Shown here: positions 2,873 through 15,161 of the stretch, one piece after another
How the letters are laid out: the number at the start of each line of letters is the position of its first letter
How positions within the stretch are numbered: position 1 is the first letter of the stretch
Origin: Acidimicrobiaceae bacterium
Lineage (GTDB): Bacteria > Actinomycetota > Acidimicrobiia > Acidimicrobiales > RAAP-2
Assembly: GCA_003138815.1 (NCBI GenBank)
Contig: PLHD01000010.1
Span: 308 to 64,307, forward strand
Length of the DNA stretch: 64,000 nucleotides
Direction: 5' to 3'
Notes under the pieces: model-generated
What the model saw: only the letters and a program-made list of their open reading frames with translations
Database searches by the model: none
Told to the model about the DNA's origin: nothing
Program-made: the position numbers and the translations under genes

Positions 2873-3373
2873 GTGGCCCGGCTCGTCCTGGTGGGGCTGC
2901 CCGGCGTGGGCAAGACGACCCTGGCCGAGAGGGTGGCACGGGTCTGGGGCTGTGGCGCACTCGACACCGACGACGTGCTCGCCGAGGCGGTGGGCTGCGC
3001 GGCCGGGGAGTACCTGCGCCGCAGGGGTGTCGAGGCCTTCCGCCAGGCCGAGCTCGCCGCGCTCGAGACGGCGCTGGAGAGCGACGCCGTCGTGGCGACC
3101 GGCGGTGGGGTGGTGACCAGCCCGCGCGCCCGTGAGCTGCTGGGCCGTGAAGTGACGCTCTGGCTCGACTGCGACGACGATGCGATCGCGCCGCGACTCG
3201 GTGACGCGGACCGCCCCCTGCTGGGCGACGAACCCCTCTCGTCGCTGGGCGCGCTTCGCGACGAGCGAGGCGCGTGGTACGAGGAGGTATCGCGTGCGCG
3301 AATCGATGCGTCGGGAACACTGGAGGACGTGACGGCACTGATACTTGACGCGGTGGGCGGGCTCGACCAGTGA
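2873..3373 (+). CDS. aroK: Shikimate kinase
   Basis: 166 residues from GTG. The P-loop GLPGVGKT is at residues 8-15, the shikimate-binding acidic pair lies in LDTDD near residue 35, and GGGVVTSPRARELL carries the shikimate-contacting glycines. It phosphorylates shikimate with ATP. It is placed between aroC and aroB, with a 4-base overlap with aroB that implies coupled translation. Confidence 0.95.
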   Translation: MARLVLVGLPGVGKTTLAERVARVWGCGALDTDDVLAEAVGCAAGEYLRRRGVEAFRQAELAALETALESDAVVATGGGVVTSPRARELLGREVTLWLDCDDDAIAPRLGDADRPLLGDEPLSSLGALRDERGAWYEEVSRARIDASGTLEDVTALILDAVGGLDQ

Positions 3374-4419
3374 GGATCACGGTTGATCTCGCCGGTCGTT
3401 CCTACGACGTGGTGCTGGGCGACGGCGCGCGGCGCCAGCTCGCCGCGCTGATCAGCCAGCGCGCCCCTCGGGCCCGGGCGGCCGCGATCGTCACCTCGCC
3501 GTCGCTGGCGCGCCAGCCGTGGTTCGACCTCGAAACGGGCCTCGTCCAGCACGTGCTCGAGGTTCCCGAAGGCGAGTCGGCCAAGACGCTCACGGTCCTC
3601 GACTCGCTCTGCGAGCGACTGTCCGAACTGGGCCTGTCGCGCAGCGACGTGGTGGTCGGGGTCGGCGGTGGAGCCACCACCGACCTAGCCGGATTCGCGG
3701 CGGCGGTCTACCTGCGAGGAGTGGCCCTGGTCCAGGTGCCGACGTCGCTCGTCGGTCAGGTGGACGCGGCCATCGGCGGCAAGACCGCGGTGAATCTTCG
3801 ATCCGGCAAGAACCTGGTCGGCTCGTTCCACCAGCCGCTGGGGGTCCTCTGCGACTTCGAGACCCTAGAGACCCTGAGCGAGCGCGAACGCCTGGGGGGC
3901 CTCGGCGAGGTCGCCAAGTGCTGGCTGCTCGAGGGTCGCCGGGCGGGCCAGCTCACGAACGAGTCGACGGGCGACCTCGTGGAGATGTCAGTGCGCCTGA
4001 AGGCGAGGGTCGTCTCGGGCGACGAGTTCGAAGGGGGCGAGCGCGCCTTGCTGAACTACGGGCACACCCTGGCGCACGCCCTCGAGATTCTGTCTCTCAA
4101 GCGCGGCACCGATGACCTGCGCCACGGCGAGGCAGTGGCCATTGGCCTCGCCTTCGCGGTTCGTCTAGCCCACGCCCTCGGCCGGGTCGGCGCCGACGAC
4201 ATCGTCAACCACGACGAGGTCCTGAAGGCGCTGGGGCTCTCGGGATGGTTGCCCGAGGAGTTCGAGGTCGATGAACTGATCCGCGCCATGGGCCACGACA
4301 AGAAGGCGAACCATGACCTAACGTTCGTGCTGAACGGCGCCGACGGGTTCGAGGTGGTTCGAGCCGTGGACCCTTCGGTCGTGGCCGACGCGCTGGCGAG
4401 CTTTCGAGGAGAGCAATGA
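3370..4419 (+). CDS. aroB: 3-dehydroquinate synthase
   Basis: 349 residues, starting at GTG inside the aroK stop (GTGA overlap). It catalyses the NAD- and metal-dependent closure of DAHP to 3-dehydroquinate. GVGGGATTDLAGFAAAVYLRG is the dinucleotide-binding glycine motif, GKTAVNLRSGKNLVGSFHQP is the substrate loop, and NYGHTLAHALE and RHGEAVAIG hold the metal-binding histidines. The next gene, aroQ, overlaps by 4 bases. Confidence 0.97.
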   Translation: MRITVDLAGRSYDVVLGDGARRQLAALISQRAPRARAAAIVTSPSLARQPWFDLETGLVQHVLEVPEGESAKTLTVLDSLCERLSELGLSRSDVVVGVGGGATTDLAGFAAAVYLRGVALVQVPTSLVGQVDAAIGGKTAVNLRSGKNLVGSFHQPLGVLCDFETLETLSERERLGGLGEVAKCWLLEGRRAGQLTNESTGDLVEMSVRLKARVVSGDEFEGGERALLNYGHTLAHALEILSLKRGTDDLRHGEAVAIGLAFAVRLAHALGRVGADDIVNHDEVLKALGLSGWLPEEFEVDELIRAMGHDKKANHDLTFVLNGADGFEVVRAVDPSVVADALASFRGEQ

Positions 4420-4865
4420 AGAACGAGATTCTGCTGTTGTCAGGACCGAACCTGGATCAACTGGGTTCGCGCAGCCCCGAGATATACGGCGTTCAGACCC
4501 TGGACGAGCACGTCGCACGTTTCACCGAGCAGGCGAGCGCGCACGGCTACAGCGTGCGCCACCTTCAGTCGAACTTCGAGGGCGACCTGATCGAGGCGGT
4601 GCACGAGGCACGCGCCAGCGCCGTGGCGATCGTGCTCAACGCCGGCGCGTTGACGCATTCCTCCTGGGCGTTGGCCGACGCGTTGGCGACGTTCCCCGGG
4701 GTGAAGGTCGAAGTGCACCTCTCCAACCCGGCTGCCCGCGAGCCGTTTCGACAGGTGAGCACGCTGGCGGGTGTCGTGAACGGCACGATCGCCGGATTCG
4801 GCGCCACGAGCTACGACCTGGCGCTCGAGGCGGTGCGACGCCTGCTGCAGGGTCGCGCGCAGTAG
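4416..4865 (+). CDS. aroQ: 3-dehydroquinate dehydratase, type II
   Basis: 149 residues. It is the small dodecameric type II enzyme that dehydrates 3-dehydroquinate to 3-dehydroshikimate. The N-terminal GPNLDQLGSRSPEIYG contains the catalytic Arg and Tyr; the usual GPNLN reads GPNLD here. QSNFEGDLIEAVHEA, NAGALTHSSWALADAL and EVHLSNPAAREPFR match the substrate-binding motifs, with the catalytic His in EVHLSN. Last gene of the aro string. Confidence 0.95.
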   Translation: MKNEILLLSGPNLDQLGSRSPEIYGVQTLDEHVARFTEQASAHGYSVRHLQSNFEGDLIEAVHEARASAVAIVLNAGALTHSSWALADALATFPGVKVEVHLSNPAAREPFRQVSTLAGVVNGTIAGFGATSYDLALEAVRRLLQGRAQ

Positions 4866-4884
4866 GCCATTCGGGCCGGCTGCC

Positions 4885-4890
4885 TAGACT
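4885..4890 (+). promoter_or_regulatory. Candidate -10 hexamer of efp
   Basis: TAGACT lies 35 bases before the efp ATG, so a start near 4897 would give a leader of about 29 bases carrying the purine-rich GGCTTCGAGG. Unlike nearby genes this would be a leadered mRNA. Confidence 0.35.
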
Positions 4891-4925
4891 GGGAAAGGCA
4901 ACTTTCGCGAAAGGCTTCGAGGCTC

Positions 4926-5489
4926 ATGGCCGCAATTTCTACGAGTGATATCAAGAACGGCATTACCATCAAGATCGACGAGGGGCTCTTCACCGTCATA
5001 GAGTTCCAGCACGTCAAGCCCGGTAAGGGCGGGGCGTTCATGCGCACCAAGTTGCGCAACGCGCGCTCGGGCGCGGTCATCGAGCGAACCTACCGATCCG
5101 ACGAGCGCCTCGAGCAGGCCATCATCGACAAGCGTGACACCCAGTTCCTGTACCGCGACGGCGACGACTACATCTTCATGGACCAGGTCACGTACGACCA
5201 GGTGGCGGTACCCTCGAACAGCCTCGGCGAGGCGTCGAACTTCCTGAAGGAGACGGGCAAGGCCATGCTGATCCAGTTCAACGACGAGATCATCGGCATC
5301 GAGTTGCCGGCGTCGGTGGAACTCGTGATAGCCGAGACCGAGCCCGGCGTCCAGGGCGACCGCGTATCGGGGGCCCGCAAATCCGCAACGCTGGAGACGG
5401 GATTCGTGGTGCAGGTTCCGCTCTTCGTCGGCCCCGGCGAGAGCATCAAGGTCGACACGCGGACTGGCGAATACATGACGCGAGCGTAG
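4926..5489 (+). CDS. efp: Translation elongation factor P
   Basis: 187 residues, family length. It binds between the P and E sites of the ribosome and relieves stalling at proline runs. The N-terminal KOW-like domain contains the loop PGKGGAFMRTKLRN, whose lysine is the site that is modified in some bacteria. Two OB domains follow, ending in GESIKVDTRTGEYMTRA, the classic C-terminus. nusB starts 1 base after the stop, so the two are probably co-transcribed. Confidence 0.97.
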   Translation: MAAISTSDIKNGITIKIDEGLFTVIEFQHVKPGKGGAFMRTKLRNARSGAVIERTYRSDERLEQAIIDKRDTQFLYRDGDDYIFMDQVTYDQVAVPSNSLGEASNFLKETGKAMLIQFNDEIIGIELPASVELVIAETEPGVQGDRVSGARKSATLETGFVVQVPLFVGPGESIKVDTRTGEYMTRA

Positions 5490-5490
5490 G

Positions 5491-5889
5491 GTGGGCGATC
5501 GCGGCGCCCAGCGCCATCTTTCGCGAGAGCGGGCGTTGGAGATCTTCTATGAAGCCAGCATCAAGGGGCGTTCGGTCGCCACCGTGCTGAACGAGCTCAC
5601 CGTGCGACCCGACGAGTACACGGTGGAGGTGCTCACCGCCGCAGAGGCCCACCAGGAGGAGGCGAACTCCCTGATCTCGCGCTACTCCATCGATTGGCCG
5701 CTGGAGCGAATAGCTCTCGTCGACCGACTCGTGATGACAATCGCCATCGGCGAGATGCTCATGGACGACGGCCCGCCGATCGCGGTGGTGTTGGACGAGG
5801 CGGTGGAGCTGGCCAAGGTCTACTCGACCGACGGATCGGCCTCGTTCGTCAACGGAGTCCTGGCGGCTTGTGCGGCGCATCTAGAGTGA
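5491..5889 (+). CDS. nusB: Transcription antitermination factor NusB
   Basis: 132 residues from GTG. All-alpha RNA-binding protein which, with NusE (S10), recognises boxA in rRNA leaders. RERALEIFYEASIKG at the N-terminus and the C-terminal VVLDEAVELAKVYSTDGSASFVNGVL are characteristic; the NGVL end is well conserved. efp-nusB is a common actinobacterial pairing. Confidence 0.93.
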   Translation: MGDRGAQRHLSRERALEIFYEASIKGRSVATVLNELTVRPDEYTVEVLTAAEAHQEEANSLISRYSIDWPLERIALVDRLVMTIAIGEMLMDDGPPIAVVLDEAVELAKVYSTDGSASFVNGVLAACAAHLE

Positions 5890-5918
5890 TACCCGTCCAC
5901 CCGTAAAGGAGAATCGCA

Positions 5919-7655
5919 GTGCCGGGCATGAGCCAGCGGTCCCTCGACCTGACCAACGCCCTGGTGGTGTCGCTGTTTCGCCACTCGCTCTTTGCCACCA
6001 GTCTCCTCTGGTTCTCGGGCCTGGCCGTGGCCCTGATGGTGGTCATCGTGGCGACCAAGCTCATCATGCGCTTCAACATGTCGCCCGACGGGATCGCAGA
6101 GCCGCGGGCGCGAACGTACCTGCGATGGGGCTTCGGTGCCCTCTGGCTCATCGACGGCATCCTCCAGTTCCAGGCATCGATGCCGCTTGGGCTCGCGAAC
6201 CAGGTGGTCGCGCCAATGACCACCGGCACACCGGGCTTCCTGCGTTCACTGATGGAGCACGGCATCTTCATCTGGAACAGCCATCCGATCACGATGGCCG
6301 TGGGCGTCGCGTGGTTCCAGGTCGGGATCGGCCTGATTCTTCTCGTCTCCAACGGCCGAACGGGCCGGTGGGTGGGCGGCATCGCGGGACTGTGGGCCGC
6401 GCTGATATGGCTGATCGGCAACGGTGCCGGGGGGATCTTCGTCCACGGAGCCACGATTCTCTTCGGCTGGCCTGGAGCGACGCTGTTCTACGCCATCGCC
6501 GGCTTCTGGCTCTTCGTCAAGCCCGCAACGTTTCGCGAACAGTTCTCCAGGGTCACCCTGCGGTTCGTGAGCGTGGTGCTCGCGGTCGCGGTGCTCTTCC
6601 AGTGCTTGCCTTCGGCCGGGTTCTGGCACGGTGGCAACGCCAATGCCATGACCCAGATGACGACGTATATGACCAGCATCGCCCAACCCCACTGGTTGGC
6701 CTGGTCGCTGCGCCACGTCGGCGACCTCTCGGCGCTCATGGGCGGCGGCTTCAACATCGTGGTGATTCTGTGGCTGCTGGCCTGTGCGTTCGGCCTGTGG
6801 CGGTCCGCGCACACCGGCTGGCAGTGGCCGGTGCGCACGCTGGTCATCGGTTGCGTCTTCTTCTGGTTCGTGGGCGAGGACACCTCCCTCTTCGGGGGGC
6901 TGGCGACCGACGTCAACTCGCTGCTGCCGCTCGCGCTGCTGGCGTGGTGCGCCTCGCCTCGCCTGCGTGCCCTCGAGGCGCGCGAGCGGCGTATCCAGCG
7001 CGAGATCACGAGCAGCGCGGGCGCCGTCGTGGCGACGTTCGGATCGGTCATGATCCTCTTCGCCAGCGTCACCATGGCCTGGGCCTCGTTCGCGGGTGCC
7101 GAGACCACCCTTTTTCTGGCTCAGAACGGTCCCGCGTCGGCGACGAGCGGTCCGGCGCCCACCTTCAGCCTGGTCGACCAGTCCGACAAGCCGTACACGC
7201 TGGGCGAGCACCAGGGTCACTACACCCTCCTGACGTTCCTCGACCCTCACTGCTGGACGGACTGCCCGTTGCTCGCGAATCAGCTCGCCCAGGTGCGTGC
7301 GAAGCTCTCGGCCAACGCCAACCTCGACATCGTTGCCGTGGCCGCCGATCCGTATCACGAACAGATATCGGACGTGCGCCACTTCATGGAAATCCACGGC
7401 CTCGAACACGTGAAGAGCTTCTACTTCGTGACGGGCAAGTTGGCCGTGGTGAAGAAAGTCTGGTCGGGCTACGGCATCGGTGTCACGATGAAGCCGACCG
7501 ACAAGATGAGCATCCACTCGGATTTCATGTTCATCATCGGTCCCAACGGCCAGTTGCGCTGGGTCATTCCCGACGACCCGATCGCCAGCAGCTCCGGCCA
7601 GGCATCGGCCGTATCGGAGCTCGTGAGTCTCCTGACGTCGTCGGGCGTTCGCTAG
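5919..7655 (+). CDS. Polytopic membrane protein fused to a SCO1/SenC copper-chaperone domain
   Basis: 578 residues. Residues about 15-400 contain around ten hydrophobic segments with several His and Trp residues between them. Residues about 410-578 form a thioredoxin-fold SCO1/SenC domain with CxxxC (C445, C449, in DPHCWTDCP) and the distal His533 (SIHSDF), the usual Cu ligands. SCO proteins normally carry one membrane anchor and deliver copper to the CuA site of cytochrome oxidase; the long membrane module is unusual. The GTG at 5919 is chosen because AAAGGAG lies at 5905-5911; an in-frame ATG occurs at 5928. The oxidase genes begin 0.5 kb downstream, which supports a role in their metallation. 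The function of the membrane half is unknown. Confidence 0.85.
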   Translation: MPGMSQRSLDLTNALVVSLFRHSLFATSLLWFSGLAVALMVVIVATKLIMRFNMSPDGIAEPRARTYLRWGFGALWLIDGILQFQASMPLGLANQVVAPMTTGTPGFLRSLMEHGIFIWNSHPITMAVGVAWFQVGIGLILLVSNGRTGRWVGGIAGLWAALIWLIGNGAGGIFVHGATILFGWPGATLFYAIAGFWLFVKPATFREQFSRVTLRFVSVVLAVAVLFQCLPSAGFWHGGNANAMTQMTTYMTSIAQPHWLAWSLRHVGDLSALMGGGFNIVVILWLLACAFGLWRSAHTGWQWPVRTLVIGCVFFWFVGEDTSLFGGLATDVNSLLPLALLAWCASPRLRALEARERRIQREITSSAGAVVATFGSVMILFASVTMAWASFAGAETTLFLAQNGPASATSGPAPTFSLVDQSDKPYTLGEHQGHYTLLTFLDPHCWTDCPLLANQLAQVRAKLSANANLDIVAVAADPYHEQISDVRHFMEIHGLEHVKSFYFVTGKLAVVKKVWSGYGIGVTMKPTDKMSIHSDFMFIIGPNGQLRWVIPDDPIASSSGQASAVSELVSLLTSSGVR

Positions 7656-8171
7656 AGGACCACGTAGGTGCGCCAGCATCTTTCGAGTCGAACCAATGAG
7701 GCTGGTCAGCCCGTCGCTTTTCGGCGCCTTCCCAATCGCGCCGCGCCAGGAGATTGAGAGCATTCTCAGGAGAAACGACACCGGTGAAGGCGTGCGCCGC
7801 CGTGTGCACGGATCGTTTGGCTGAGTTACTCGTTGGTAGCGTGGGCGCGCAATCGTCTGGATCGGCTGCGCCGGTCCAGATGGGGTTGGGCGGCTCGGAC
7901 GTATGTTTCGTGTGTTTGTACCACGTATAGACGGCGCGCGCAGAGCGTTGACCATCTCTCGACGCGCTCCTGGCCACCGAAATTGACGCCGGGTGTGCTG
8001 TCCAATGCGATGGCGAGCGCAGGAGAGTGAGCTCGATCGTTGGGGATAAGACCGCCGCTGAATCCAAGAATTCTCTTAGTTTCCTCCAACGTAATTCTTA
8101 ACATTCGTTGTGCAAAACGTTACTCTCGGGTGTGAGTTTCACGAGAAACGCCACGTCGCAAGGAGTCATGT
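7656..8171 (+). other. Intergenic region upstream of the oxidase genes
   Basis: 516 bases without a convincing gene. The composition is less GC-rich than the neighbouring genes, and open frames on the minus strand (for example 7826-8104) show no recognisable domain. The last 80 bases hold a plausible promoter (8098-8126), a short inverted repeat GTTTC-ACGA-GAAAC (8136-8149) and an AAGGAG ribosome-binding site before 8172. It may contain a decayed gene, but this cannot be shown. Confidence 0.4.
8098..8126 (+). promoter_or_regulatory. Candidate promoter of the oxidase operon
   Basis: TTAACA (8098-8103) and TACTCT (8121-8126) are separated by exactly 17 bases. The -35 matches TTGACA in five positions; the -10 fits TAnnnT. 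The leader would be about 40 bases and includes the inverted repeat at 8136-8149 and an AAGGAG. Confidence 0.4.
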
Positions 8172-8855
8172 ATGTCTATGCGAGGGAGACTTGCAACGGT
8201 GATCGGGCTCTTCCTGGTTGCGGTTGCTCTGGCCGGTTGGGGCGTCGTGTCCTTCATCCGTCCGGGCGTGCCCGGCGGAGTCATGGATTTCACCCAGGGC
8301 CACGCCGCCGGCCAGCCGGTTGATCTGACGGCCCAGACCGTGGGGGCGATTGGATTCGGACCCCATCCGACGTGGGTGTCCTACCTGGTCAAGGACCCCT
8401 CGACGGGCAAGTGGGTCCAGGACACGACCTGGAAGCTCCCCGCGAACAGCGTGATCGACATGACGATTCTCCAGTACGACTCCGGCAGCCCGCTTCGCAA
8501 CCAGGAATGGGGGCAGGTGCAGGGGACGATCGGCGGAACCGCCACGTTGAACGGAACGAGCTACAGCGCCTACAACTCCAACACCGGCACCGGCGTCGGC
8601 CACACCTTCACGGTGCCGGCGTTGGGCCTGAGCGTGCCGTTGATTGGCGTCAACAGCAGCGACAGCGTGTGCGGTTCCGCGCCGTGCATGACGAGTTCAC
8701 CGCACAATACGATCACGTTCAGCTTCAAGACGCCAGGACCGGGTAGCTACTCCTGGCAGTGCTTCGTTCCCTGCGGACTCGGTTACTTATTCGGAAACGG
8801 GGGGCCAATGTCAACGCTGAACTACATGGGCGGTCAACTGGAAGTGGTGCAATAG
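8172..8855 (+). CDS. Membrane-anchored cupredoxin-like protein with a CuA-like CxxxC motif
   Basis: 227 residues. An N-terminal signal or anchor (residues 8-29) precedes an exported domain. Near the C-terminus the segment WQCFVPCGLGY...GGPM resembles the CuA loop of oxidase subunit II (CSELCGIWHGTM in the next gene): C197, C201 and M213 are present, and His144 in GVGHTFTVPALG matches the first CuA histidine. The second CuA histidine appears to be missing. A further cysteine pair, C167 and C172, could form a disulfide. It is the first gene of the oxidase operon, with subunit II starting 2 bases after its stop. It may be a mononuclear or CuA-type electron carrier, or an accessory subunit; the function is inferred only. 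Confidence 0.75.
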   Translation: MSMRGRLATVIGLFLVAVALAGWGVVSFIRPGVPGGVMDFTQGHAAGQPVDLTAQTVGAIGFGPHPTWVSYLVKDPSTGKWVQDTTWKLPANSVIDMTILQYDSGSPLRNQEWGQVQGTIGGTATLNGTSYSAYNSNTGTGVGHTFTVPALGLSVPLIGVNSSDSVCGSAPCMTSSPHNTITFSFKTPGPGSYSWQCFVPCGLGYLFGNGGPMSTLNYMGGQLEVVQ

Positions 8856-8857
8856 CC

Positions 8858-9847
8858 ATGGCGAATGAGAACTCAACGAACGAGACCCACCACCTGCGAA
8901 ACATCACGGTGATCTGGTTGATCCTGTCGGTGATCGTAGACCTACTGTTCTGGTTCCTGGTCGGTCCTCACGTTCCCCCGGGGACGATGACGTCTTCGGC
9001 CAAGGGCAACCAATTCGACTTCACGTTCCTGTGCCTCATGGCCCTTCCGGTGCTCATCGGCGTCTGGGTCTACATGGGCTACGCGATTAGGATCTGGAGC
9101 GCCAAGCGGCCGGGTGCCGAAGAGCCGATGACGGGACCGAATGCCCGCACCAACAAGACCGCCCAGGTGTCGTGGATCGTGATCACCTCAGTGGCGGTTC
9201 TCTTCCTCGCCGGCTTTGGTACGGTCGAGCTGGTGATTAGCCAGGGATCGGGTGGCGGCGAAGGCCCGAACCCCATCTGGACGCCCCCTGGTGCCACGAA
9301 GGCCGAAGCCGCCGCCCTCACGCCCAAGGCCTCGTGGTCGGCGAACAGCAATCAGGTCCTGACGGTCCAGGTCATCGCCCAGCAGTGGAAGTTCACCTAC
9401 CGTTATCCCCAGTTCGGCGGTTTCGAGACCACCCAGCTGGTCCTTCCCGCGAACACGAATATCGCCTTCAACGTGACGTCGCTCGACGTGATCCACAGCT
9501 TCTGGGCGTACCAACTGGACGTCAAGGCCGACGCCAACCCCCAGCAGAACGACGTGGCCTTCACCCAGACCAAGCAGTTGGGTAGTTTCACCGTTCGTTG
9601 CAGTGAACTCTGCGGCATCTGGCACGGCACGATGTTCAACTCGGGCAAGGTCGTGTCCGAGGCCGCATTCATGAGCTGGGCGCAGTCGACCGAGCAAGCG
9701 AACGCGCAGAACACGGCCGACCTGCCCCCGTTCGCCTGGACCTACGTTCCCGACGCCAACGGAGCCGCCGGTGGTTACTACACGGACGGGAACGTAACTC
9801 CCTATAGCACGGTCGAAATCTACGGTTCGAAGCAGTCCGCACCGTGA
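8858..9847 (+). CDS. ctaC: Cytochrome c oxidase subunit II
   Basis: 329 residues from ATG at 8858, 2 bases after the previous stop. Hydrophobic segments lie near residues 16-36, 56-76 and 108-128, then comes the exported cupredoxin domain. QQWKFTYRYP is the conserved aromatic electron-entry motif. All CuA ligands are present: H213, C248, E250, C252, H256 and M259 (CSELCGIWHGTM). It accepts electrons from a donor outside the membrane and passes them to subunit I. There is no fused cytochrome c domain. Confidence 0.93.
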   Translation: MANENSTNETHHLRNITVIWLILSVIVDLLFWFLVGPHVPPGTMTSSAKGNQFDFTFLCLMALPVLIGVWVYMGYAIRIWSAKRPGAEEPMTGPNARTNKTAQVSWIVITSVAVLFLAGFGTVELVISQGSGGGEGPNPIWTPPGATKAEAAALTPKASWSANSNQVLTVQVIAQQWKFTYRYPQFGGFETTQLVLPANTNIAFNVTSLDVIHSFWAYQLDVKADANPQQNDVAFTQTKQLGSFTVRCSELCGIWHGTMFNSGKVVSEAAFMSWAQSTEQANAQNTADLPPFAWTYVPDANGAAGGYYTDGNVTPYSTVEIYGSKQSAP

Positions 9848-9905: not shown

Positions 9906-11876
9906 ATGACAATTAGCGCTGAACCAACGACGGAAGTTGTGACCAGCGCCGTGGTGCCACCGTCGTCGCCGGTTAAAACGCCGTGGAGCCAGAGAAGCGG
10001 CTGGCTAAGCCAGCACCTGGGTACCGCCATCGTGGGAGCGGTCCTGGGCTACGTATTCGGCCACTGGCTGGGAAACTACGTAGCGAGTGGCTACACCTAC
10101 ATCGCCAACAGCGGGCAGAACTCCATTGCCGACGCGTTGGCGCTGATCTTCATGACCTTCGGATGGCTGCTGGGCATCGGTGCCTTGAACTACCCACTGG
10201 CCAAGATCGTGGGCCGATCAGCTCCGGAGGAAGTGATTGCCAAGGGCTGGACGAAGTATGTCCGCTACAGCACGGACCACAAGGTCGTCGGAATGCAGTA
10301 CATCGTCGGCGTGCTCTTGTTCTTGTTCACCGGTGGTCTGCTGGCGATGGCGATCCGCACCGAACTGTTGAACCCCACGACCCACGTCTTCAGCGCGGAC
10401 ACTTACATCAAGATCGTGAGCGAGCACGGGACCATCATGATGATGATGGCCACGTCCATCATCGTCGGTCCGCTGGGCAACTACCTGGTTCCGCTCATGA
10501 TCGGAGCGCGGCGCATGGCGTTCCCGAGAATTGAAGCGTTCAGCTTCTGGGTCTTCATCGCGGGTTACATGGTCATCTTCTCGGCGCTGCCGTACGGCGG
10601 TTTCCCTACCGGCTGGACGGGCTACGCGCCGCTGCAGACCCAGGCGGGTCCGGGCATGGTCTCCTATCTGCTGGGCTTCGCCGTCATCGGCTTAGGCATG
10701 ATGGCAGCGGGATTCAACATTGCGGTGACGATCATCAACTACCGAGCTCCCGGCATGACCTGGAGCCGCGTTCCGATATTCGTATGGTCGCTTCTGGCCA
10801 CCGCTGCGCTGCTCACCTTGGCGACGCCGGTCCTCTTCGCCGGCGGGCTCTTCGGCCTGCTCGACAAGACCGCCCAGACCGCGTTCTACGTCACCGAGCA
10901 CGGCGGTAGCTCGTTCCTGTGGGAGAACCTCTTCTGGTTCTTCGGCCACCCCGAGGTGTACATCATGGCCCTGCCGGGATTCGGCATTGTCGGTGAGTTG
11001 ATTCCGGTATTCTGCCGTAAACCGCTCTTCGCCTACAAGGTGGCGGCGGCGGGAATGATCGGCGTGGCCCTGCTGTCGTTCTTCGTGTGGCAGCACCACC
11101 TCTTCCAGAGCGGGATCAACCCCGACATGCGGCCGCTCTTCATGCTCACCACCGAGTTGATCTCGATCCCGACCGGCTTCATCTTCCTGGTCGGCATGGG
11201 GACCCTTTACAGAGCGAAGATCCGCTTCGAGGTTCCGATGTTGTTCTGCATGGCCGTCTTCTTCAACTTCCTCATAGGCGGCATCACCGGGGTCTTCCTC
11301 TCGGACGTGCCGGTCAACGTCACCGTCCACGGCGGATTCTTCGTCCTCTCGCACTTCCACTACACCATCATGGGAGGGCTACTGTTCGCCTTCATGGGTG
11401 GCTTGTACTACTGGCTGCCCAAGATGACCGGTCGAATGATGAACAAGAAGCTCGGACTGGTCCACTTCTGGACCATGTTGGTGTTCTTCAATCTGACGTT
11501 CTTCCCGATGTTCATCATCGGCCTGCTCGGACAGCCACGTCGCGTCTTCACGTACGCCAAGAACCTGCAGGGACTGAATGACTTCTCATCCGTCAGTGCG
11601 TTCCTCCTGGGAGCATCGTTCCTCGTCTTCCTCGTGAACTTCATGTGGTCGATGTACATCAACCCGGTGATGGCTCCGGCGAATCCGTGGGATTCCCTGG
11701 GCCTTGAGTGGCAGACGGCCACTCCGGTTCCCAGCTACAACTTCGAGCGTATTCCCGTGATCATGACCGACCCTTATCACTACGGCGAAGTGGGCGCGCC
11801 AGCGCTCGCCGACTTCGGCGATGGGCCGCCAGCCCCGTTAGGCAGTTCTTCAACCACCGGCAGCGACCCGGCCTAG
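9906..11876 (+). CDS. ctaD: Cytochrome c oxidase subunit I, with unusual proton-channel residues
   Basis: 656 residues, longer than usual owing to two extra hydrophobic segments (about 40-60 and 76-98) before the conserved core. Heme and CuB ligands are visible: H174 (SEHGTIMM), H348 with the cross-linked Y352 (GHPEVY), H397-H398, and H483/H485 (SHFHYT). E350 of HPEVY is kept. The D-channel motif GArDMAFPRLN instead reads GARRMAFPRIE (R203, E210), and the K-channel lysine of PTGxKxF is replaced (PTGFIF, I426). HDTYFV near the heme propionate reads HGGFFV. It reduces O2 at heme-CuB in the membrane. A ribosome-binding site (GAAACGGAG) precedes the ATG. Confidence 0.93.
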   Translation: MTISAEPTTEVVTSAVVPPSSPVKTPWSQRSGWLSQHLGTAIVGAVLGYVFGHWLGNYVASGYTYIANSGQNSIADALALIFMTFGWLLGIGALNYPLAKIVGRSAPEEVIAKGWTKYVRYSTDHKVVGMQYIVGVLLFLFTGGLLAMAIRTELLNPTTHVFSADTYIKIVSEHGTIMMMMATSIIVGPLGNYLVPLMIGARRMAFPRIEAFSFWVFIAGYMVIFSALPYGGFPTGWTGYAPLQTQAGPGMVSYLLGFAVIGLGMMAAGFNIAVTIINYRAPGMTWSRVPIFVWSLLATAALLTLATPVLFAGGLFGLLDKTAQTAFYVTEHGGSSFLWENLFWFFGHPEVYIMALPGFGIVGELIPVFCRKPLFAYKVAAAGMIGVALLSFFVWQHHLFQSGINPDMRPLFMLTTELISIPTGFIFLVGMGTLYRAKIRFEVPMLFCMAVFFNFLIGGITGVFLSDVPVNVTVHGGFFVLSHFHYTIMGGLLFAFMGGLYYWLPKMTGRMMNKKLGLVHFWTMLVFFNLTFFPMFIIGLLGQPRRVFTYAKNLQGLNDFSSVSAFLLGASFLVFLVNFMWSMYINPVMAPANPWDSLGLEWQTATPVPSYNFERIPVIMTDPYHYGEVGAPALADFGDGPPAPLGSSSTTGSDPA

Positions 11877-11897
11877 TAGCGAGTGGAGAGTAGCGCT

Positions 11898-12554
11898 ATG
11901 ACCGAAGCATCCAAAGTACCAAAGGGAATGAGTGAAACCCCCGAGGAACGCGAGTTCGAACTGCGAGCACATATCGGCTCGCTGTGGTCAGGGGGTCGAC
12001 TCTTCATCGGGATGTATACGTTCCTGCTGGCATCGCTGGCCTTCTCGTACTTCTACCTGAGGTCCAGCAACAATGGACTGCTATGGCGCCCCAATCACGT
12101 CACGGCGCCCACGGCGTACGGCTGGACCATTTACTCCCTGACGCTTCTGGCGGCACTGATGGTGATCTACGGACAGTGGCGTCTTCGCAAGGGCGCCGTG
12201 ATTGACTGGCAAGTTGCCGGCTGGACGGCCTTCGGCGCGGGACTCCTGGCCCTCTTCCTGCAAGTCTGGGAGTTCACGGCCGTCCCGTTCGCCCCGGGAT
12301 CCAGCGGCTACGCGTCGTCGTTCATTGGCTACGCCGTCATCAATATCGGCACGCTCGCCATCTCGGTCTACTGGCTGGAGACGACGCTCGCGCGTTCGCT
12401 GCGCATGCGTAAGGAGTTCGGACGAGCCACTCCGGAACTCTCGATGCACGCCTCGGCGCAGTCGTTCAGGGCGAACGTCGCATCGATGACGTACTGGATG
12501 GGATTCGTGGCCCTCGGCGGCACGCTGTTGTTTGCGATGTTCTATCTGCTGTAG
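11898..12554 (+). CDS. ctaE: Cytochrome c oxidase subunit III
   Basis: 218 residues. The ATG at 11898 is preferred over an in-frame GTG at 11883 because GGAGAG lies just upstream. Five to six membrane segments follow a charged N-terminus; FIGMYTFLLASLAFSYFYLR matches the start of the COX3 family. It has no metal centre and stabilises subunit I. Spacing of 21 bases from ctaD indicates one operon. Confidence 0.85.
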   Translation: MTEASKVPKGMSETPEEREFELRAHIGSLWSGGRLFIGMYTFLLASLAFSYFYLRSSNNGLLWRPNHVTAPTAYGWTIYSLTLLAALMVIYGQWRLRKGAVIDWQVAGWTAFGAGLLALFLQVWEFTAVPFAPGSSGYASSFIGYAVINIGTLAISVYWLETTLARSLRMRKEFGRATPELSMHASAQSFRANVASMTYWMGFVALGGTLLFAMFYLL

Positions 12555-12626
12555 TTCGAACTGCCAGGGTGGCAGATCGGAGTTTGATTGTGAGACGGCT
12601 GTTCAACCCATAAAGGTGTGGTGGTG

Positions 12627-12740
12627 ATGCAAGGTATCGATATCTATATTGGTCCGCAAGTGCAGACGATGGTGGTTCTGCTGGGAGTATTCATTGGTGT
12701 AGTGCTGTGGGGGTTCTTCCAGCGTCGTCCGTCCGAGTGA
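12627..12740 (+). CDS. 37-residue single-pass membrane protein in the oxidase operon
   Basis: The ATG at 12627 follows TAAAGGTG (12611-12618). The product has a short polar N-terminus, one hydrophobic span (MVVLLGVFIGVVLWGFF) and a basic tail RRPSE. The stop overlaps a GTG of the next gene by 4 bases, the coupling pattern used by real genes here. Size and place suggest a small oxidase subunit or assembly peptide, similar in form to CcoQ or actinobacterial CtaF-type subunits; there is no direct evidence of which. Confidence 0.65.
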   Translation: MQGIDIYIGPQVQTMVVLLGVFIGVVLWGFFQRRPSE

Positions 12741-13555
12741 CCGCGATGAGTTCCGTCAGTGAGCTTGCCGGCCATCGCCGGTTCCGCAACGTGCTGACGG
12801 TGCTCGGATTGCTGCTGCTGCTCGTCTGCTTGACGCCTCCGTTCACCAATTGGTCCATAAGGTACGGTTTCGTCCAGGCAATTCAGTTCGACGTATTCGC
12901 AATCGTGGTGCCCGTACTATTTGTCGCGGGATCCCCTTGGCGCCGATTGGGCCTTGCCTCGGGCACCCCGTACCGATTCGATCCCGACGGGGCCCTGATA
13001 TCACCGACGAAGCCACTGATCGTCGATCGGATGGCGCTCGCGCGTGCGAGACGAAGGGGGAACAACCGGGCGGTGCTGGAGGTCCTCTCGTTCATCGCAC
13101 TGACAATCCTGTGGCGCTCTGCACCGGTGGCGGATGCAATGGTGCGCCACCCGTGGCTGGAGATCGTTGAAGCCAGCACGATGTTGGTTGCAGGGATCGT
13201 GCTGTGGCTGGACCTGATCGAGTCGCCACCCGTGAGCCCGGCAACTGCACGACCGTATCGAATTGGCATGACTGCGGCTGCGATGTGGACCGTGTGGGTT
13301 GTCGCGTATCTGCAGGCGATGTCGCATGATTCCTGGTACAGCGCGTTTCACCATGTTGCGGGTCAAGGTATTTCACTGTCGGCGGATCAGCAGTTGACGG
13401 CCGGCTTCATGTGGCTGCTGTCCGCGTCGGCTTTCTTGCCGGTGGTCTTCTGGAACTTGATTCATTGGCTCCAGTCCGAAGAGGATCCTGATGCGGAGCT
13501 CTACCAACTGGTCCGCCAGGATCACACTCGCGGGTTCTTCGGTACCAACAGTTAG
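12737..13555 (+). CDS. CtaG-like (caa3-type) oxidase assembly protein
   Basis: About 272 residues from the GTG overlapping the previous stop; an ATG at 12746 is the alternative. Six or seven membrane segments. YGFVQAIQFDVFAIVVPVLF followed by AGSPWRRLGL resembles the CtaG_2 core, and ADQQLTAGFMWLLSA near residue 225 matches its DQQLAGxxMW motif. The family is needed for maturation of caa3-type oxidases, probably in copper handling. Several histidines of typical members are replaced in the first half, so it is a divergent copy. Confidence 0.7.
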   Translation: MTAMSSVSELAGHRRFRNVLTVLGLLLLLVCLTPPFTNWSIRYGFVQAIQFDVFAIVVPVLFVAGSPWRRLGLASGTPYRFDPDGALISPTKPLIVDRMALARARRRGNNRAVLEVLSFIALTILWRSAPVADAMVRHPWLEIVEASTMLVAGIVLWLDLIESPPVSPATARPYRIGMTAAAMWTVWVVAYLQAMSHDSWYSAFHHVAGQGISLSADQQLTAGFMWLLSASAFLPVVFWNLIHWLQSEEDPDAELYQLVRQDHTRGFFGTNS

Positions 13556-13662: not shown

Positions 13663-14340
13663 TCAGGTGCCTTGTAGGTGGGCCAGCACCGGCAGCTTGA
13701 TCTGGACCAGGGTGGTAGCCACTATTGCCTCGGCGCGCTGAAGGTCGGCGTACGCCTGTTGACGAGTGGCGGACAACTGGACCTCTTCGGCGGCCAGGTC
13801 CGCTATCTTCTTCTGGTTTCCGGGATGAACGAAGAGGTACTGGATGTCCTCGATGGCCGCCAGGGAGTAGTCGGTCATCCACATCTGAACCGCCCTGCCC
13901 ATGCTGACGATGTACTTTCCGGCTGCCGTGAGATTCACCTGGAGGTTGTTGGTCAAGTCGGACAGCCCGCCACTGGCGAAGGAACACGCTGTTTGATCGC
14001 CGACGAGAAGGGTGACGGCCTGGGGGCGGTTGGCAGCGCTCATCTTGCCCGTGACGTCCTCGGTGTAGAAGCTGAAGGCCTCCTTGACCGCAAAGGCGCA
14101 GGGAGCGGTGTCGGTGTTGATCTGCTTGATGCTGGCGTTCTGCGAGGAAGCATCCTCGGCCCTCGAAATTGGATGAGGCAGGTCCGTGATGATGGAGACT
14201 GCGACGACGACGACGATGGCCACGGTTGTCAAGAACCAGGGTCGCTTGTACCAGATGGCCTTGACTGATCCCAGCGAAGAGGCTGGCATTGAGGCGGGGT
14301 TGTAGGGCGTCGTCTGATTCGAGCTCTCGCCATTCGTCAT
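13663..14340 (-). CDS. Membrane-anchored protein of unknown function, paired with a SCO protein
   Basis: 225 residues: a Pro/Ser-rich cytoplasmic N-terminus, one membrane span at about 34-52, then an exported, mostly helical domain with two cysteines, C81 and C119. Asn/Gln-rich stretches and a C-terminal helix rich in Ala, Gln and Arg are visible. No family recognised. Its ATG overlaps the stop of the upstream SCO gene by 4 bases, so the two are translated together; a role in copper delivery or oxidase assembly is inferred from that alone. Confidence 0.75.
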   Translation of the reverse strand: MTNGESSNQTTPYNPASMPASSLGSVKAIWYKRPWFLTTVAIVVVVAVSIITDLPHPISRAEDASSQNASIKQINTDTAPCAFAVKEAFSFYTEDVTGKMSAANRPQAVTLLVGDQTACSFASGGLSDLTNNLQVNLTAAGKYIVSMGRAVQMWMTDYSLAAIEDIQYLFVHPGNQKKIADLAAEEVQLSATRQQAYADLQRAEAIVATTLVQIKLPVLAHLQGT

Positions 14341-15161
14341 CCGACAAGACTACTTGCCGTCTGAGCGATTCCCGTGGCGAAACGGTGGACATCAGCGGCG
14401 GGGAGACTGTAGGTTCCGGACCGGCTGGGCTTGCCGAATGGCTCGGCGAGCGAAACGATGCTGCCGTTCGTAGCGATGAAGTAGATCACGTTCGTGTGCG
14501 TCACCTCAGTGGCGATGGCACCAACCTTCACTACGACGCCGTAGCGAGACCATACCGAGTTGAGCGCGCTGAGTCGTCCGGTCAAGAAGTAGACCGAGGG
14601 CGTGCTGGCGAGTTTGGGAACGCTGAGCGCCTTGGGATGGGACGCGACGCCGAGGTCATGGGGGTCGGTGTTGACAATGGCGAAATCAACATTGGCGGCC
14701 TTTGGGCCGAGCAGCGTTATCGCCTGGCTGATCTCGCTGCCCAGCACCGGGCAGATGTCGTTGCAGATCGAGTTGTAGAAGGTCAGTACGACGACTTTGC
14801 CCTTGGTACTGGCGAGGTTCCATCGACCGCCCGACTGGTCGTAGAGCGTGAAGGGGAACTCCTTGGTGTTGTCGATGAGCTTCAGTCCGATGTACTGGGC
14901 GGGGGTCAGGGCCGACGTTGGTGGCTCGGCCAGCGTCGTGGTCGTCGCCCTGTTCGTAGGGACGGTGGTCGGCGTGGGCGCGATGCTGCCGAAGTAGTGG
15001 TCGACGACCACTCCTCCCAGTCCCAGCACGGCGAAGGTAACCACTGCCCACATGATGAACTTGGGTGGTACTGGCGTGCGACCCGCGCGTAGGGCGGCCG
15101 CACGCTTTTCCTCCGACAGTTCCTTGGAGGGGCCCGGCGGCTCTGCGTTGCTGTTCGTCAT
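14337..15161 (-). CDS. SCO1/SenC-family copper chaperone
   Basis: 274 residues. One membrane span (about 35-55), a Thr/Pro linker, then a thioredoxin-fold SCO domain. The copper ligands are C133 and C137 (SICNDICP) and His222 (VTHTNV). These proteins deliver Cu to, or reduce, the CuA cysteines of oxidase subunit II outside the membrane. It lies close to the ctaC-ctaD-ctaE cluster but on the opposite strand, and is a second SCO domain besides the one fused at 5919-7655. Confidence 0.88.
   Translation of the reverse strand: MTNSNAEPPGPSKELSEEKRAAALRAGRTPVPPKFIMWAVVTFAVLGLGGVVVDHYFGSIAPTPTTVPTNRATTTTLAEPPTSALTPAQYIGLKLIDNTKEFPFTLYDQSGGRWNLASTKGKVVVLTFYNSICNDICPVLGSEISQAITLLGPKAANVDFAIVNTDPHDLGVASHPKALSVPKLASTPSVYFLTGRLSALNSVWSRYGVVVKVGAIATEVTHTNVIYFIATNGSIVSLAEPFGKPSRSGTYSLPAADVHRFATGIAQTASSLVG

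Follow-up and report, generated by a model that had tools for sequence, protein, structure and literature searches.

CUP, a membrane-anchored cupredoxin-like protein encoded ahead of a second heme-copper oxidase in Acidimicrobiaceae

The oxidase cluster and its leading gene

The window analyzed here is the whole stretch of 64,000 nucleotides from contig PLHD01000010.1 of an Acidimicrobiaceae bacterium. It includes a heme-copper oxidase operon led by an open reading frame whose product we refer to as CUP (Table 1). The gene order is SCO fusion, CUP, coxB, coxA, coxC, ctaG and then a second SCO gene, with SCO genes flanking the cluster at both ends. The stop codon of CUP (8853-8855) lies only 2 nt before the start of coxB (8858), and because of this short gap the two are probably co-translated. 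A sigma-70 promoter scan of the CUP-oxidase operon returned no match. The subunit II that adjoins CUP keeps the full CuA motif (RCSELCGIWHGTM).

Table 1. Features of the CUP-oxidase cluster (coordinates are those of the window)
Feature	Coordinates	Strand	Basis or remark
Membrane domain fused to a C-terminal SCO1/SenC domain	5919..7655	+	Upstream neighbor in most loci
CUP, membrane-anchored cupredoxin-like protein	8172..8855	+	227 aa; invariant H144, C197, C201, M213, M219, G221
Transmembrane helix at the N terminus (residues 3-29), probably an anchor that is not cleaved	8178..8258	+	AlphaFold2 model helix; no cleavage or lipobox motif in sequence
His144 codon, aligned with first CuA histidine	8601..8603	+	Profile alignment, conservation
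CFVPC: Cys197 and Cys201, aligned with CuA cysteine pair	8760..8774	+	Profile alignment, conservation
MSTLNYMGG, Met213 to Gly221	8808..8834	+	M213 near missing-histidine position; M219 aligned with CuA methionine
coxB, cytochrome c oxidase subunit II, complete CuA motif	8858..9847	+	Domain matches, motif
coxA, oxidase subunit I	9906..11876	+	PF00115 match at G000:C46:10594-11910
coxC, oxidase subunit III-type membrane protein	11883..12554	+	Assigned by position and conservation, Pfam giving no match
CtaG, caa3-type assembly factor	12707..13555	+	PF09678
Second SCO1/SenC protein	14337..15161	-	Pfam match, beyond ctaG

Two minor features are worth recording. A short possible open reading frame between coxC and ctaG (12557-12755), read by eye, would encode a small single-helix protein, perhaps a small oxidase subunit. 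On the minus strand, positions 13663-14340 encode a conserved exported protein of unknown family that adjoins the second SCO gene and is kept in most oxidase loci.

Taken as a single sequence, CUP had no family match in Pfam and NCBIfam scans, and its best PDB match with phmmer reached only E 0.2; the relationship to cupredoxins described below emerged only when a family profile was used. CUP does not match PF02630, the SCO/SenC family of thioredoxin-like fold, although both neighboring SCO genes do, and the fold predicted for it is that of a cupredoxin. The earlier note on this sequence had described an exported protein with H144, C197, C201, and M213. These residues are as described, but export needs refinement. 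The sequence has no lipobox and no evident signal-peptidase site, and a helix is predicted at residues 3-29. The most likely arrangement is therefore a membrane anchor that is not cleaved off and a domain that lies outside.

Homologues of CUP occur in 67 of 100 related genomes. Among them is the cultured iron-oxidizer Acidimicrobium ferrooxidans, whose homologue (L051, positions 8252-8917, minus strand; 43%-44% identical) also precedes coxB and coxA. In a scan of a larger collection, in which 80 of 143 loci were seen, most from Acidimicrobiaceae MAGs, the order CUP-coxB-coxA repeats except at contig breaks. Many of the MAGs seen at these 80 loci have bog, palsa, or fen in their sample names, and the organism from which the window comes is presumably an acidophile, judging by its relatives. 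Across the Actinomycetota, a homologue was found in 17 of 396 genomes, and members from other families (L169-L172) show the same CUP-coxB-coxA order. Six records titled as other phyla (L096, L104, L110, L111, L114, and L138) carry an Acidimicrobiia-type cluster and may be mislabeled bins. In two places (L037, positions 3104-6930, and L040, positions 7338-8664), CUP genes, some of them lipoprotein-like, lie beside genes for response regulators and histidine kinases and not beside oxidase or NrfD genes.

Conserved residues, fold, and relation to the CuA domain

The conservation alignment comprised 160 sequences (159 distinct homologues plus the protein from the window, one row lacking the C-terminal part), with a median pairwise identity of 33% and a minimum of 17%. 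H144, C197, C201, M213, and M219 are 100% conserved in the 159 distinct homologues. G221 alone is equally invariant, and P200 is nearly so across the 160 sequences. No other His, Cys, or Met residue of CUP is family-wide, and the conserved set of these residues is far beyond chance. It includes C197, C201, and M213, the residues on whose conservation the earlier note had made its proposal depend. Throughout the family, Cys197 and Cys201 are always separated by three residues, and Met213 and Met219 always by five. The gap between Cys201 and Met213 is 10-12 residues in most members and 3-4 in the short ones.

Aligned with hhalign to 150 CuA domains of the neighboring subunits II, the CUP family matched with a probability of 94 and a P of ~1e-7. 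In this register, H144 falls on the first CuA histidine and C197 and C201 on the cysteine pair. The global alignment places M219 on the CuA methionine, and M219 sits in an M-x-G-x-L-x-V pattern, the one in which cupredoxins have their axial methionine. Together, these two observations mark M213 as an additional invariant residue and not the counterpart of the CuA methionine. Thus, the CuA-like ligand order proposed previously (H144, C197, C201, M213) stands for the histidine and both cysteines but has to be amended for the methionine.

The canonical CuA motif (H...C-x3-C-x3-H-x2-M) is not found in CUP, and the second histidine, already reported as missing, is indeed absent from its CuA position in both the hhalign register and the 160-sequence alignment. 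A histidine anywhere in the loop from C201 to M219 occurs in only 12 of the 160 sequences and is not conserved; most of the 12 are short NrfD-linked members, in which it lies two residues after M213, again without conservation. Nor does the family show the type 1 set His-Cys-His(-Met), as no histidine after Cys197 is conserved. As possible replacements for the second histidine, His65 and His178 were considered and set aside; both are frequent in the coxB-linked subfamily and absent from many other members. In the shortest members, M213 lies five residues past the second cysteine, where the CuA histidine lies at four, and M213 may take the role of the lost histidine. The candidate copper-ligand set suggested by these comparisons is therefore His-Cys2-Met2 (H144, C197, C201, M213, and M219) instead of His-Cys2-Met.

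Structure prediction points to the same superfamily. Of two AlphaFold2 models (full-length and trimmed domain; pLDDT 75.5 and 77.9), the full-length one has a helix at residues 3-29 followed by a beta domain. Both models have low confidence in the putative copper loop (residues 200-227), with block pLDDT of ~26-51, and trimming the domain did not change this. Foldseek ranked rusticyanin first (E 0.03), followed by copper nitrite reductases and oxidase subunit II, with all E-values above 0.001. By VIA-align, in which all Z scores were below 8, the best matches were rusticyanin (Z 7.1), a Hyphomicrobium nitrite reductase (7.0), and a heme-copper oxidase subunit II (7deg_B; 6.4), with other CuA domains at 5.6-6.0; the matches listed were cupredoxins, CuA domains, or multicopper enzymes. 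The trimmed model recovered the same fold families plus nitrosocyanin. Searched against the PDB, the family profile matched copper nitrite reductase (E 2e-4), auracyanin A, AcoP (E 0.014), and the ba3 CuA domain (E 0.3). A Greek-key beta sandwich of the cupredoxin superfamily is thus the supported assignment for CUP, read with Z scores below 8 and a C-terminal loop of low confidence, and it is the fold that the earlier note's proposal required.

One oxidase and an array of paralogues

The genus carries two oxidases, which we separated by Pfam COX1 score into canonical aa3 enzymes (>480 bits; 47 loci) and a second oxidase (390-440 bits; 56 loci). CUP lies within 3 kb of the oxidase at 52 of the 56 second-oxidase loci and at none of the 47 canonical loci, and at least two of the four second-oxidase loci that lack it are at contig ends. 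The second oxidases fall into two groups, one with an ordinary and one with a shorter subunit II (many of the latter carry CxQxCG), and in both groups CUP is the leading gene and the chromosomal location is the same. As a side observation, in some species (loci L054-L061, L063, and L066) this location, between EF-P/NusB and PyrR genes, holds a different oxidase with a shorter subunit II (several with CTQFCG or CEQFCG) that keeps its CUP leader. The genome from which the window comes encodes a bc1-type complex and one diheme cytochrome c (QcrC, linked to bc1); no further cytochrome c was found in this genome or in A. ferrooxidans.

CUP paralogues also occur away from oxidases. Arrays of two to four such genes were found in 10 of 61 genomes of the same genus; NrfD genes occur in 11 genomes, including all 10 of these. 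Array and NrfD share a contig in nine of the 10; in the tenth (G041), the array reaches the contig end. Next to the arrays are genes for an NrfD membrane protein and for a 4Fe-4S protein that has a twin-arginine-type leader, usually accompanied by a gene for a small membrane protein; no oxidase gene lies beside them. The same NrfD/4Fe-4S/cupredoxin operon is present in other families of the order (L062, L069, and L070). Cupredoxin-like genes, mostly in tandem, adjoin 4Fe-4S and NrfD genes at L036, L064, L067-L070, and L176 (as well as L033, L035, L041-L044, and L062), and no oxidase or molybdopterin subunits were seen near those loci.

Possible function and comparison with known systems

The best explanation, to which we assign a probability of about 0.58, is that CUP is an AcoP-like electron-transfer partner of the second oxidase, with a rewired copper site derived from CuA. 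In this account, CUP is a cupredoxin anchored in the membrane and a relative of the CuA domain of oxidase subunit II. It probably binds one or two copper ions through His144, Cys197, Cys201, Met213, and Met219, and would be dedicated to the second, noncanonical heme-copper oxidase encoded behind it. The most plausible membrane donor of electrons to CUP would be, in this genome, the diheme cytochrome c of the bc1-type complex and, in iron oxidizers, perhaps the iron-oxidizing chain; CUP would pass the electrons on to the CuA of subunit II. The neighboring SCO proteins would load copper into CUP. The exclusive pairing of CUP with one oxidase and the occurrence of its paralogues in NrfD/4Fe-4S operons both lend support to the earlier suggestion that it donates electrons. 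Against it, we note that an extra carrier is not strictly required, given the intact CuA site of subunit II and the presence of QcrC, and that C197-x3-C201 could be a disulfide.

The NrfD-linked paralogues, which have no oxidase beside them, are what chiefly speaks for electron transfer and against a function confined to CuA assembly. CUP could nevertheless be a copper chaperone or assembly factor that holds Cu(I) and hands it to the CuA of subunit II together with SCO and CtaG. Genes for both lie in the same cluster and are conserved across loci, the chemistry of Cys-x3-Cys with His and Met suits Cu(I) and is similar to the CxxxC and His of SCO, and CUP is absent beside the canonical oxidase. 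But the paralogues carry the same invariant residues in operons with no CuA protein to load, the known chaperone function is already supplied by the SCO genes, and the canonical oxidase manages without CUP. The cupredoxin fold also favors electron transfer, though it does not require it. Overall, we regard a chaperone as unlikely.

The same paralogues, having no oxidase to shield, weaken the proposal that CUP is an accessory subunit that shields or stabilizes CuA at low pH and whose copper site is secondary or vestigial. We consider this less probable still, given that invariance of five candidate ligands in 159 sequences is not expected of a vestigial site, even though the members found here come mainly from Acidimicrobiaceae and other MAGs, with bog, palsa, or fen in many of the sample names, and AcoP co-purifies with its oxidase and has been proposed to have a stabilizing effect in acid (PMC5982212). 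Least probable, at rather long odds, is that CUP binds no copper and that a disulfide, structural or redox, joins C197 and C201 within a cupredoxin-like fold. The C-x3-C spacing would allow this, in the coxB-linked subfamily C167 and C172 have the look of a structural disulfide, and the loop with the candidate ligands has low confidence in both models. H144, M213, and M219 equal the cysteines in invariance, which a disulfide would not explain, and H144 and both cysteines align with CuA ligands.

Comparison with known systems clarifies what would be distinctive about CUP as an electron-transfer partner. AcoP, the acidophile cytochrome c oxidase partner of Acidithiobacillus ferrooxidans, belongs to the green copper proteins; it takes electrons from cytochrome c4 and is purified together with its oxidase (PMC4059628; PMC5982212). 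Like AcoP, CUP is a membrane-anchored single-domain cupredoxin encoded with an oxidase operon, apparently that of an acidophile to judge from relatives, and the profile match between them is weak (E 0.014). AcoP has the type 1 ligands His85, Cys159, His166, and Met171 (C-x6-H-x4-M) (PMC4059628), whereas the CUP family lacks the second histidine and has a second cysteine and a second methionine instead (C-x3-C-x(3-12)-M-x5-M). With the CuA domains of oxidase subunit II and nitrous oxide reductase, CUP shares the fold type, the register of the first histidine and Cys-x3-Cys, and M219 at the CuA methionine. It differs from them in the missing second histidine, a loop ~8-11 residues longer in most members, and the extra invariant Met213, and in being a separate anchored protein and not an oxidase subunit. 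Similarity extends to the type 1 blue copper proteins, among them rusticyanin (the closest fold, Z 7.1) and auracyanin (the profile search found auracyanin A), but CUP lacks their His-Cys-His-Met set, is membrane-anchored, and has 227 residues.

PmoD/AmoD of methane and ammonia oxidizers resembles CUP in being cupredoxin-like, membrane-anchored, and encoded in the operon of an oxygen-using copper enzyme, and has a noncanonical CuA-like site (PMC6189053). This site lies at a homodimer interface and is built from Cys, Met, and His near the N terminus (Cx7MxHxnC); unlike CUP, PmoD has no canonical loop, and its transmembrane helix is C-terminal. Kinship of the two was rejected, as Cx7MxHxnC is absent from CUP and no cysteine among its 227 residues is followed by Met eight and His ten positions on. 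Nevertheless, because the CuA site of PmoD is formed by different ligands (PMC6189053), the previous statement that known CuA proteins need two histidines has to be revised, and the missing histidine would be compatible with a binuclear site in CUP.

More tentatively, and in our judgment doubtful as a whole, CUP may be a natural CuA variant in which one histidine is replaced by methionine (His-Cys2-Met2, mono- or binuclear), serving as an electron wire both in front of the second oxidase and in the 4Fe-4S/NrfD arrays, where electrons would pass between quinol and cupredoxins without cytochrome c. A search of open-licence papers for a His-to-Met CuA variant found nothing pertinent. The need of CuA for both histidines has so far been addressed mainly with engineered proteins, and if CUP binds copper as its sequence suggests, it would offer a natural test of this need in a CuA-type center. 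In that case, acidophilic actinobacteria would also have an oxidase partner of their own, comparable to AcoP, in organisms for which QcrC is the sole cytochrome c detected. The homologue in the cultured and sequenced Acidimicrobium ferrooxidans makes this testable.

The NrfD/4Fe-4S/cupredoxin arrays possibly represent a quinol-to-cupredoxin electron-transfer complex, and suggest a quinol-to-copper route for which no paper linking NrfD with cupredoxin and quinol was found in the open-licence literature. The membrane domain of the SCO fusion recurs, without its SCO domain, beside many of these arrays, and may therefore work with CUP proteins and not only with SCO.
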